From contig CAITNS010000077.1 in the NCBI GenBank assembly GCA_903893815.1, positions 1 through 37,855 of the forward strand: a stretch of DNA of 37,855 nt, given 5' to 3'. Below are positions 32,968-37,855 of the stretch, one piece after another. The translations under genes were made by a program, and so were the position numbers. The DNA comes from an uncultured Bacteroidota bacterium (GTDB taxonomy: Bacteria; Bacteroidota; Bacteroidia; B-17B0; Aurantibacillaceae). The notes beneath the pieces were generated by a model. The model saw only the letters and a program-made list of their open reading frames with translations, made no database searches and was not told the origin of the DNA. Every line of letters begins with the position of its first letter. Position 1 is the first letter of the stretch.

Positions 32968-33513
32968 TTAATTATCAAAATTTATTTCATCTGTTTTTTC
33001 AGAAAATCCATGGCTATTTTGATAAAAGTCATTAATATCACTCACAATACTCATCAATAGAGAATTGTTATCTTTAAATGTTGGAATGCCATTATTAATT
33101 TCATAAGTGCTAATAAAGTAGCCTTGCAAATCACTTGGTAAATCTTTTAGCAACTCATCAGTTCCAACTTTTTCTTTAATAATATAAACTGAAAGATTTT
33201 GCTTTTTAGAAACATATATTGCAATTCCAAGCTCCAAAAAAACATTAGCAGTTAATTTAGAAATATCAACAATAACCACATTTGCAGTTTCAATGCGTTT
33301 TATAATACTATCTAGCATTGTTTTGCCCGCCGATGCGCGTAACCTTTTATAAACAACATCAAATTTTACATCTATTTTTTTATTGTTTTTATTATCAAAA
33401 CGGTTTTGCAAACTATTTGTAATAAACTTGATAGCTAATTCCGAATTGGTTGTTTTTTCTTTATTGTCTATATCTGGCCACTTATAGGCAGCAGCAATTG
33501 TAAATTGACTCAT
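32968..33513 (-). CDS. TIR-like / nucleoside 2-deoxyribosyltransferase-like domain protein
   Basis: 181 residues, cytoplasmic. Residues 69-101 (SIIKRIETANVVIVDISKLTANVFLELGIAIYV) match the pattern 'I..adivIaDiSglNpNVxyELGiA' shared by nucleoside 2-deoxyribosyltransferases and related TIR-like domains. Asn90 and Glu94 are at the positions expected for the conserved N and catalytic E. The N-terminal FTIAAAYKWPDIDNKE strand also fits that fold. Proteins with this fold cut N-glycosidic bonds in nucleosides or NAD and appear often in defence systems. The substrate cannot be inferred here. The downstream terminator is its own, while the gene upstream encodes a four-helix membrane protein 106 bp away. 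Alternative: a stand-alone metabolic deoxyribosyltransferase. Confidence 0.6.
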   Translation of the reverse strand: MSQFTIAAAYKWPDIDNKEKTTNSELAIKFITNSLQNRFDNKNNKKIDVKFDVVYKRLRASAGKTMLDSIIKRIETANVVIVDISKLTANVFLELGIAIYVSKKQNLSVYIIKEKVGTDELLKDLPSDLQGYFISTYEINNGIPTFKDNNSLLMSIVSDINDFYQNSHGFSEKTDEINFDN

Positions 33514-33619: not shown

Positions 33620-34177
33620 TTATTTTTTACCAAATGCCAAATCTAATTTATTGGCAATTTTTTCAGTCAAAAAAATTCGCCTAAATAAAATAATAATTGT
33701 AATTAATAAAAACAAAGACAATAAAGCAACCCATCCATTATTACTAACATTAAAAAGTATATTTAATATTAAAACTGTAGATATATAAGTAATTCCCGAA
33801 AGCAATATAATACCTAAAACTTTAGTAGTTAAACTGTTTTTTTTCATTAGTCTAAATGAAAAATAAAAAATTACTGCACCAAAACACATTACTACAATTC
33901 CATAACCTTTTGTATATCTATTATCAAGTAAACCCATTGACCAAAATACATCCCAAAAAGCTATGAAATATAGTAAATAACCGAAAATATGTGTTTTTTT
34001 ATTTGATTTTTCATTATCAGTATTTGCTTGTGTTAAAAAGCCAGAAATATAAACATCGCATTCTTCTTTTGAAACATTAACTTCTTCTGCTTTTTTATAA
34101 ATCAGTTTTCTATTTTCTATATCTACCTTGCCAGATAAGCAGGACATTTGTATTAATTCTTTAAGTTCAGTATTCAT
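33620..34177 (-). CDS. Four-helix membrane protein with small N-terminal cytoplasmic domain, unknown function
   Basis: 185 residues. The first ~50 residues (MNTELKELIQMSCLSGKVDIENRKLIYKKAEEVNVSKEECDVYISG) form a compact helical unit that looks like the short TerB/SHOCT-like modules seen in front of membrane segments in Bacteroidota proteins. This resemblance is weak. Four hydrophobic helices follow at about 62-83, 91-111, 120-142 and 149-169, then a basic tail (EKIANKLDLAFGKK). No catalytic motif. A 55-nt leader element (34202-34256) shared with two neighbouring genes lies 24 nt upstream of the start. It may be transcribed with the TIR-like gene downstream. Confidence 0.65.
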   Translation of the reverse strand: MNTELKELIQMSCLSGKVDIENRKLIYKKAEEVNVSKEECDVYISGFLTQANTDNEKSNKKTHIFGYLLYFIAFWDVFWSMGLLDNRYTKGYGIVVMCFGAVIFYFSFRLMKKNSLTTKVLGIILLSGITYISTVLILNILFNVSNNGWVALLSLFLLITIIILFRRIFLTEKIANKLDLAFGKK

Positions 34178-34201
34178 TTCAGTATTTAATTTTAATTACC
34201 C

Positions 34202-34256
34202 TACTCATAAGGCTTTTCGGTTAAGCCCCGTTTTTTTGGTGGTTTCTGGACTCCAC
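34202..34256 (-). repeat. Leader element copy C (shared 55-58 nt repeat)
   Basis: On the minus strand it starts GTGGAGTCCAGAAACCACC and ends CCTTATGAGTA, 24 nt before the start of the four-helix gene. It shares with copies A and B the GTG(G/A)AG start, the AGAAA block, a seven-A run, the GGG/GAAAA block and the terminal GAGTA. Stem GTGG/CCAC and a second stem GGCTT/AAGCC can form. Confidence 0.7.
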
Positions 34257-34293
34257 ATTTTTTTAAAAAACTACATATTTATTGCAATTAATT

Positions 34294-34545
34294 TTATAGA
34301 GCACAACTTTTTGAGCAATAGTGTGAAGGGAAAGACTCAATTTCAGAACCAGAAACGCTCATCACTTCTCCACCTCTATCCTTTATATACCCGCCACCAT
34401 TGAATCCCTTGCTGCAATTACCGCAAGTATGCTGATATGAAGCTTGAGAACCATAACTACTTGAACTTTTAGATCCACAACTATTTAAAGTTACAGAAGC
34501 AAATATTATTGCTCCGAAAATTATTATTGCTTTTTTCATTTTCAT
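34294..34545 (-). CDS. Small lipoprotein with CxxC...CxxxC motif
   Basis: 83 residues from the ATG at 34545 (or 81 from 34539). The signal MKMKKAIIIFGAIIFASVTLNSC ends in a lipobox LNS-C, so it should be lipid-anchored. The mature part is Ser/Gly-rich and then HTCGNCSKGFNGGGYIKDRGGEV...SHYCSKSCAL, two cysteine pairs that resemble a small treble-clef/zinc-ribbon motif I recall in other short Bacteroidota proteins. The frame is open further upstream to a GTG at 34614, through leader copy A. I reject that longer form because it would bury the signal peptide behind 23 basic residues. Function unknown. Confidence 0.7.
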   Translation of the reverse strand: MKMKKAIIIFGAIIFASVTLNSCGSKSSSSYGSQASYQHTCGNCSKGFNGGGYIKDRGGEVMSVSGSEIESFPSHYCSKSCAL

Positions 34546-34556
34546 GTATTTAGTTT

Positions 34557-34614
34557 TACTCTTATGGATTTTCAAGTTACTCCCAGTTTTTTTGAATGGT
34601 TTTCTTGTCTCCAC
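34557..34614 (-). repeat. Leader element copy A (shared 55-58 nt repeat)
   Basis: On the minus strand it begins GTGGAGACAAGAAAACCATT and ends TCCATAAGAGTA, 11 nt before the lipoprotein ATG at 34545. It is gap-free over 58 nt against copy B, with 13 substitutions. Similarity extends ~12 nt further upstream (ATTAAAC..CAAAA). Confidence 0.75.
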
Positions 34615-34625
34615 TTTTGAAGTTT

Positions 34626-34708
34626 AATCCTACAAAGTGCTTTTCAGCAACCAGCAAAGTTTTCCTTGATATTGCAGGGTTATTTTATTAATTTAATGTT
34701 GTAGGATT
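34626..34708 (-). other. Long-range 10-bp inverted repeat between two lipoprotein genes
   Basis: AATCCTACAA (34626-34635) and TTGTAGGATT (34699-34708) are perfectly complementary across a 63-nt loop. The element starts 4 nt after the stop codon of the gene ending at 34712 and runs up to leader copy A. No T-run follows. It may be part of the leader structure or a decayed terminator. Confidence 0.5.
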
Positions 34709-34711
34709 TTA

Positions 34712-35352
34712 TTATTCGTTTAATAAGGCTTTATTTCTTTTTATATCTTTTAAAAAATCAACAGTACTTATTTTAGAATAATTTTCTCCTATCACAACAA
34801 AGTTTTCATTGTACTTTTCAAAAGAGTAAGGATCTAAATAATCTAATTCAGGAATTACATCATTAAACTTTAATTGCTTCCCTAATTCAAGTTTATTATT
34901 TATTAGTTTCGCTTCAGGAAAAAAAACAGTATAAGTTTTCCATTTATTATTACCTGATTGAGACAGAGGATCGAACCAATGAAATTTTAATTGAACAATA
35001 GGCACGTTGTTTTCAAGCATAACTTTAAAATCTTTAATATATATGATCCGGATTTTTCAAAAGCAATTTCAAAATCATTTTTTAAAGTGTTATCTAAATT
35101 GGTTATTCTTTTTTTATTTATTTCATTATTTAATAAAAACGAAAAAATACAATCAAAAACAAAAGGTGGATTCATTCGATTACCATTTTCGTACTCATCT
35201 GTTTTAGTTATTGCTTTATATGCCCTTTTTAATATTTCTTTTTCATTTTTTTTTAATACCGTATCATCAATTTTATTATAACTTCTGCCGCAGCCTATAA
35301 AAAGTAAATAAGAAATAAATACTGGCGCTAAAATTTTTACCGTTTTTTTCAT
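34712..35352 (-). pseudogene. Lipoprotein gene broken by a frameshift in a short TA repeat
   Basis: Two overlapping frames join into one sensible protein. The first (from ATG 35352) starts with MKKTVKILAPVFISYLLFIGCG, a lipoprotein signal, and runs to about residue 104 (FEIAFEKSGSY). It then degenerates to ILKILKLCLKTTCLLFN and stops. The second frame reads IKDFKVMLENNVPIVQLKFHWFDPLSQSG... to the stop at 34712. Removing two bases from the ATATATAT tract at 35037-35044 joins them into ~212 residues without interruption. As sequenced the gene is disrupted, or the tract has a two-base error. The mature part has no motif I recognise. It is preceded by leader copy B. Confidence 0.72.
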
Positions 35353-35376
35353 TTATTTAATGTATATATATTTACT

Positions 35377-35434
35377 TACTCTTTTGGATTTTCAGTTTGC
35401 TCCCTATTTTTTTAAGTGATTTCCTTGCCTTCAC
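35377..35434 (-). repeat. Leader element copy B (shared 55-58 nt repeat)
   Basis: On the minus strand it begins GTGAAGGCAAGGAAATCACT and ends TCCAAAAGAGTA, 24 nt before the ATG of the frameshifted lipoprotein. The first stem is AAGTGA/TCACTT with an 11-nt loop. In copies A and C the corresponding bases are GTGG/CCA(T/C), so the fourth stem pair is A-T here and G-C there. Confidence 0.75.
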
Positions 35435-35515
35435 TTTTGTGTTTAATTTTTCTTTTATTATATGTTTTGACAAATAAATGGAACATTTGTAATTGAATAC
35501 AATATCAGGAAATCA

Positions 35516-37754: not shown

Positions 37755-37764
37755 ATTGTAAAAT

Positions 37765-37855
<91 letters not shown>

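Follow-up and report, generated by a model that had tools for sequence, protein, structure and literature searches.

The repeat that precedes three neighbouring genes on the minus strand of the window (the whole 37,855-nt stretch of DNA analysed here) is DUF805 RNA, Rfam family RF03081, and comparison of aligned elements shows a predicted fold in which two stems, P1 and P3, are accompanied by two pseudoknots, PK-A and PK-B. DUF805 RNA is probably a portable leader that stands before many small genes of the FCB group, mostly encoding exported or membrane proteins, and controls their translation in cis. To the known family the analysis adds a model with two pseudoknots, the finding that elements lie at a tightly kept distance from a start that has no Shine-Dalgarno sequence, the wide range of led genes and evidence against three candidate partners.

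Three members of a known RNA family in the window

All three repeats matched RF03081, for which the gathering score is 51.1 bits. Copies 1 and 2 reached that score and copy 3 fell short of it by 0.7 bits with an E-value of 4e-7. An Rfam search of the whole window gave E-values of 1.8e-13 (copy 1) and 8.4e-9 (copy 2), and a search of 7.9 kb gave 3.7e-14, 1.8e-9 and 4e-7 for copies 1, 2 and 3, respectively; the similarity of the three repeats is far above chance. Because the copies match RF03081, an already catalogued candidate cis-regulatory RNA (Rfam clan CL00115), the repeat observation is real, and the three are new members of a known orphan RNA family. Weinberg et al., in 2017, are said to have given the original description of the family. 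A full-text search for 'DUF805' in one library of papers yielded none whose title or opening of the abstract concerned an RNA motif; within that library no function for RF03081 was found, and it appears to be an orphan RNA. The elements and the genes they lead are as follows.

34194..34261, minus strand: DUF805 RNA copy 1 (RF03081 80.3 bits; R1 model 82.3 bits), leading the gene at 34177-33620
34549..34619, minus strand: DUF805 RNA copy 2 (RF03081 60.4 bits), leading a lipoprotein-like gene with its start at 34545 or 34539
35368..35439, minus strand: DUF805 RNA copy 3 (RF03081 50.4 bits; R1 model 62.7 bits), leading a split gene with its start at 35352
34178..34200, minus strand: spacer between the copy-1 tail GAGTAG and ATG, 23 nt
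33620..34177, minus strand: gene led by copy 1, 185 aa, no Pfam family over the cut-off
34294..34545, minus strand: gene led by copy 2, 83 aa, lipoprotein-like and cysteine-rich
34712..35352, minus strand: gene led by copy 3, lipoprotein-like, with a frame change that leaves the overlapping pieces 35352-34987 and 35020-34712

The original prediction, made from the letters of this stretch, had described three minus-strand copies with a first stem that varies while its pairing is kept. The copies are present where it placed them, with the full extents given above, and the three stem variants GUGG/CCAC, GUGG/CCAU (with one G-U) and GUGA/UCAC were all seen in P1. Absent from it were the membership in an Rfam family, the eight further matches in the same genome and the two pseudoknots.

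The 185-aa product of the gene led by copy 1 is likely an integral membrane protein. The 83-aa product of the copy-2 gene carries CxxC and CxxxC pairs and has a sub-threshold match to zf-FCS (E 0.0044). The split of the copy-3 gene is a frameshift or an assembly error, and both of its pieces were without a Pfam match at E up to 1; none of the three led genes had a Pfam family over the cut-off. BLASTP among the three led proteins found no mutual similarity at E 1e-3, in agreement with the claim that these genes share no sequence. The distance from the tail (GAGUAG or GAGUAA) to the ATG is 23 nt in copy 1 (ATG at 34177) and also in copy 3 (35352), and 10 or 16 nt in copy 2, depending on which of the two possible starts is taken. 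At 34626-34708, between the copy-3 gene and copy 2, the sequences AATCCTACAA ... TTGTAGGATT form an inverted repeat that encloses further partial repeats and looks like either a terminator or a degenerate hairpin of attC type.

Stems and pseudoknots of the leader

The structure line printed by the Rfam search holds only P1 (positions 6-9/20-23) and P3 (35-37/49-51), both of which are kept through compensatory change. RNAalifold, applied to 64 elements together with their start regions, likewise returned P1 and P3 only and found no conserved pairing of the element with the spacer or the start. In a mutual-information scan of the best 110 of 128 aligned elements, the top five places were taken by every pair of P1 (four in all) and by the one P3 pair that varies, and the next four by the Watson-Crick pairs 13-34, 43-61, 14-33 and 42-62. 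These four make up two pseudoknots of two covarying pairs each: PK-A, in which P1 loop positions 13-14 pair with 33-34, the bases before P3, and PK-B, in which P3 loop positions 42-43 pair with positions 61-62 of the tail GAGUAGG. A45 and U59, both nearly invariant, may lengthen PK-B. Conserved unpaired bases are found at AAA 29-31, AAA 46-48 and GAGUA 56-60, and the element thus has an aptamer-like conserved fold with conserved unpaired bases, as a riboswitch would. Our model agrees with RF03081 in P1, P3 and the cis-regulatory type, and differs from it in that PK-A and PK-B, found here, are missing from the Rfam structure line and that the window's genome has no match to a DUF805 protein gene.

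Among the 128 aligned elements PK-A read CC/GG in 60, CU/AG in nine, UC/GA in seven, CA/UG in two and AC/GU in one, mismatched combinations also occurring, and PK-B read CC/GG in 64, CU/AG in 19, CU/GG in 16, UU/AA in four and AC/GU in two. Copy 1 of the window has P1 GUGG/CCAC, PK-A CC/GG, P3 GGC/GCC and PK-B CC/GG. Copy 2 keeps both pseudoknots with changed letters (PK-A CA/UG, PK-B UU/AA), and copy 3 keeps PK-B (CU/AG) and one of the two pairs of PK-A (CA/AG).

The full model of 11 pairs was compared with shuffled alignments, which leave the relatedness among elements in place. Over 127 distinct elements 95.0% of cells were paired, against 83.3% in shuffles, and 155 cells carried double changes, against 37.7; neither value was reached in any of 500 shuffles. 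Double-change cells numbered 23 against 4.9 for PK-A alone and 35 against 11.1 for PK-B alone, and for either pseudoknot taken alone the cells paired, the double-change cells and the covariation score were each matched in 0/500 shuffles. By the count of pairs in which a double change occurs, a weak measure for a two-pair helix, the pseudoknots did not beat the shuffles (PK-A 421/500, PK-B 324/500). We then had a second set of 45 further elements (44 distinct), 42 of them from genomes outside the discovery set and three (L319, L320, L275) new elements from genomes already sampled. Here 96.3% of PK-A cells and 97.7% of PK-B cells were paired (81.4% and 88.7% in shuffles), double-change cells among the 44 distinct elements numbered seven against 0.9 and 13 against 3.9, respectively, and for both pseudoknots the cells paired, the double-change cells and the covariation score again stood at 0/500; since nearly all of these elements come from one family and were aligned to the model of the first set, the second set is not fully independent. 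The pairs with a double change stood at 79/500 (PK-A) and 305/500 (PK-B) in this set, and further pair types of PK-B at 28/500 for the 127 elements and 53/500 for the 44. Both pseudoknots are fully paired in 113 of the 171 distinct elements. The covarying pairs of PK-A and PK-B supply exact compensatory mutations.

A different pairing, P2, of positions 32-34 with 42-44, would exclude both pseudoknots. Considered as a pseudoknot in its own right, P2 looked good on 36 sequences, became marginal on 64 (cells paired 14/500) and was unsupported on the 127 elements (84.2% against 83.6% in shuffles, 147/500). On the 44 further elements it reached 89.8% against 86.4% (1/500), with a covariation score at 0/500 and double-change cells at 18/500. 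Of the 171 elements, 117 retain both inner pairs of P2. P2 may be a competing fold or second state.

Ten elements are 93-118 nt long (L171, L175, L253, L257, L267, L268, L269, L275, L309 and L310) and contain apparent insertions of ~25 nt or more, possibly an extra hairpin; in L175 the Rfam alignment puts the insertion inside the P3 loop. The arrays at L169 and L170 (genomes G020 and G035) have a different first hairpin, ACUG...CAGU, with the 3' domain unchanged, and these elements look like a sub-family with a swapped 5' hairpin. By our own reading of the proteins and the Pfam tally, in which members are not named individually, the genes at L169 and L170 are PixA-, DUF1842- and phosphatidylserine-decarboxylase-like. 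At L212 a PixA-like and a DUF1842-like gene lie ~2 kb apart, each with its own leader.

Placement, led genes and distribution

We compiled 231 distinct elements, of which 223 had room for a check of the start codon. Behind 212 of the 223, an ATG reading frame of 40 codons or more began within 60 nt after the tail, compared with 19.3% at random positions in the same loci, and the tail-to-ATG spacing was 15-30 nt in 202 of the 223 (mode 20-21 nt; random positions 5.5%); because 117 pattern hits in this set had been picked by an exact consensus pattern, it is biased to typical elements. On the opposite side of the element an ATG frame began within 60 nt in only 16 of 216 cases. A later set of elements gave the same picture, with 41 of 43 preceding an ATG frame. 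The original prediction had made its reading depend on copies not lying at random relative to starts, and they do not. Upstream of the element, no promoter-like motif at a fixed distance was found in 112 pattern hits.

Within the spacer, A is enriched at -3, -6 and -11 to -13 (204 elements). These positions are close to the positive determinants of initiation in F. johnsoniae, placed at -3, -6, -12 and -13 in excerpts of PMC6847099, which also report lower pairing from -20 to +20. Taken together, the A enrichment and these determinants suggest that the element stops at the border of the unstructured initiation region; the 3' strand of PK-B reaches to ~20 nt before the AUG, the edge of that region. 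The element and its spacer make a leader of ~80 nt or more, which is long relative to the median 5' UTR of 24 nt given for Flavobacterium psychrophilum in the excerpted text of PMC9723704.

The led genes are highly diverse. BLASTP sorted 215 led proteins into 130 clusters, 95 of them singletons, and these genes would gain a common regulatory context once the signal is found. A Pfam scan of 214 led proteins, tallied from the 25 commonest families in each half, had among its matches DUF805 (19), a secretion tail domain (13), TM2 (12), SCO4226-like proteins (10), PixA (at least five) and aquaporin-type MIP (three). A signal- or membrane-like hydrophobic stretch was present in 153 of 211 distinct led proteins and in 284 of 618 neighbouring frames (Fisher p 2e-11), by a crude hydropathy measure and with unverified frames among the neighbours. 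The led genes are enriched for predicted exported or membrane proteins. No constant downstream protein family was found among them, and they have no common pathway; for genes under a metabolite riboswitch this would be unusual. In 58 element-bearing genomes (E up to 1e-6) at least five of the 21 DUF805 genes over the cut-off lay behind a listed element. The name "DUF805" describes an association of the family and not a requirement of its members, and for the window's genome it is misleading.

Array neighbours are likewise mostly unrelated, the exceptions being a duplicated DUF805-type pair (L086) and a 41% match over 70 residues (L171). In an array on contig C43 of the window's genome, the similarity within two pairs of units is confined to the leader and the first 31-40 residues, the signal peptides, which suggests that a leader can move together with a signal peptide. 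Segmental duplication that includes coding sequence had been named as an explanation that would undo the original prediction; the window genes share no such sequence, and the two C43 pairs show it over those first residues.

The window's genome has 11 RF03081 matches at E up to 0.001, six of them over the gathering score; the eight beyond the window copies include four over that score. Four elements form the same-strand array at C43:68553-72065, and the fourth of these (L165:13997-14058) is without the 3' domain, apparently through decay. With the window's own genome counted each time, matches were found in 33 of 60 genomes of relatives (E up to 0.001), in 46 of 87 at the level of the order (E up to 1e-5) and in 58 of 395 in a sample of the phylum (E up to 1e-6), the larger searches having stricter filters that lose weak matches. 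Among 14 named control genomes Bacteroides ihuae alone had a match. A scan of a species-wide genome collection with the consensus pattern returned at least 116 stretches. By our own reading of 80 listed titles, a few of which are contigs from one genome, 68 are Bacteroidota and seven Ignavibacteria, with one each from Chlorobiota, Kapaibacterium, Cloacimonadota, an unclassified bacterium and Parcubacteria, the last represented by a contig of 3.8 kb, possibly a binning error. DUF805 RNA is thus patchy across the FCB group and occurs in many families.

Homogenisation of leaders within a genome was not supported on average. In a sample of 107 elements from 45 genomes of the window's family, leaders of non-homologous genes had an identity of 0.613 within genomes (169 pairs) against 0.633 between genomes (4686 pairs), and a within-genome value as high as this arose in 1909 of 2000 permutations. 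The nearest-neighbour leader came from the same genome in 14 of 78 cases, against 3.7 expected. Together these results point to some local duplication without general homogenisation.

Proposed mode of action and alternative readings

Each copy would serve as the 5' leader of an mRNA and act in cis on the translation of the next gene. A terminator hairpin would hardly fit into the spacer of ~20 nt, so that any control is most simply placed at translation. The fold model leaves the start codon free, which speaks against this reading. Formation or opening of PK-B, which abuts the unstructured initiation region used by Bacteroidota ribosomes in place of a Shine-Dalgarno sequence, would alter 30S loading, and the state would be set by a small molecule, an ion or a widely conserved protein held on the conserved unpaired bases; alternatively, a factor bound to PK-B itself might change how readily the 30S subunit reaches the initiation region. 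Because the element occurs in many FCB families and before mostly unrelated genes, its partner should be near-universal: a common metabolite, an ion or the ribosome. In its boldest form, which we offer tentatively, this would make DUF805 RNA a horizontally portable translational switch that answers one general FCB-wide signal and stands before genes for small exported and membrane proteins of over 100 unrelated families. Its double pseudoknot would close, with the final strand, immediately outside an initiation site free of a Shine-Dalgarno sequence. Such a switch would be a mode of control specific to bacteria that gave up Shine-Dalgarno recognition. Bacteroidota mostly lack Shine-Dalgarno sites (PMC6847099, in the same excerpts), and control of translation by a leader is of wider interest there.

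The original prediction had called the element a transferable 5' control region, riboswitch-like or else an insertion hot-spot boundary. Much of the former description holds, given the tight position before starts, the 130 clusters among 215 genes, the patchy spread and the structure-preserving changes; the part that concerns a ligand or switch is putative.

Partners were sought by gene content in 57 element-bearing genomes, the window's own genome being left out. Allowing that a missing match may mean an assembly gap, GGDEF was present in 19 of the 57 and had no match in 38, DAC was present in 29 and had no match in 28, and Hfq had a match in none, which is evidence against c-di-GMP, c-di-AMP and Hfq as obligatory partners; such a role is unlikely for all three. 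RRM_1 was present in 48 of the 57. That frequency would suit a conserved RNA-binding protein (an RRM or ribosomal protein, for example) that binds this leader as a repressor or activator of translation, but the RRM_1 match is missing in nine of the carriers and Hfq in every one, no constant family of downstream neighbours accompanies the element, and we consider this reading rather improbable. It is also conceivable that the leader contains no switch and constitutively recruits ribosomes or stabilises the mRNA, as a ready-made 5' UTR for captured genes in hosts that do not use Shine-Dalgarno sequences. Mostly unrelated genes, a patchy FCB distribution, a site just upstream of the initiation region and the lack of any tested ligand-synthesis or Hfq family common to all carriers fit such a leader. 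Against it, the strongly conserved unpaired bases and the two pseudoknots look like a specific binding fold, and when eight conserved segments were compared with the 16S and 23S rRNA of one relative, complementarity showed no excess in 15 of 16 comparisons; on balance we think a constitutive leader unlikely. The A-run segment AAAAAACG does match 16S rRNA, and as good a match arose in seven of 200 shuffles of 16S; we read it as a chance effect of low complexity.

Translational riboswitches with a small H-type pseudoknot in a short leader include the preQ1 classes, SAM-II and SAM-V. DUF805 RNA resembles them in being a short leader with an H-type pseudoknot made from a hairpin loop and a 3' tail near the start. 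SAM-V is described as an H-type pseudoknot that controls translation (PMC6061858). DUF805 RNA differs in that its tail strand stops near -20, before the initiation region is reached, and holds no recognised ribosome-binding site, in that its genes have no common pathway and in that a role for a ligand is only putative.

In integrons, each small cassette gene comes with one copy of a repeated element of ~60-70 nt, attC. Arrays of DUF805 RNA are similar in form, with mostly unrelated small genes and one element of about that length for each, and if the repeat were a DNA recombination site of gene cassettes its RNA-like features would be incidental. The tandem arrays and the variable locus between the 5S rRNA gene and the sigma operon speak for this; a count over 116 whole loci of attC-like pairs with matching arms (eight against four in one shuffle) is too small to weigh. 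In contrast to attC, DUF805 RNA has a fixed position before a start codon and RNA-type covariation, with compensatory changes that include the pseudoknots. Canonical attC-like pairs (RYYYAAC / GTTRRRY) stood upstream of three of 117 elements, against 2.45 in shuffles, and the integron integrase TIGR02249 had no match over the cut-off in the window's genome (10 below). Searches of limited sensitivity also found no viral contig with the exact consensus pattern and nothing by blastn with copy 1 in plasmid and phage collections. The DNA-element reading is disfavoured, and we regard it as very improbable.

The variable locus itself was followed in eight fetched flanks from relatives, with one genome per species. 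The sigma-factor operon that adjoins the window array lies within ~140 nt of the 5S rRNA gene in G016 and G017, whereas the gap between them is 5.1 kb in the window and is filled by ~5.0 kb of other genes in G008 and ~2.4 kb in G005; in the stretches fetched for the other four flanks a 5S gene was not found. None of the eight flanks had a DUF805 element at E up to 1, and homologues of the window genes that were tested (E up to 1e-3) were limited to the sigma gene and the gene next to it. Since the contents of the gap differ between relatives, gene content at this place turns over between species. The suggestion of an insertion hot-spot boundary is only half right: the stretch between the 5S rRNA gene and the sigma operon does vary between species, but canonical attC cores are not enriched upstream of elements, and a variable locus alone does not establish the element as a marker of insertion ends.

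A partial 5S rRNA gene occupies 37762-37855 on the minus strand, at the end of the contig, which probably breaks at an rRNA operon; in G016, G017 and G005 a 23S gene adjoins the corresponding 5S gene. Adjoining the array in the window is a gene at 32968-33513 (minus strand), for which tblastn in the fetched loci gave no match outside its own genome. Its product matches the CAP12/Pycsar TIR domain below the threshold (E 0.0027) and is possibly a defence-related protein.
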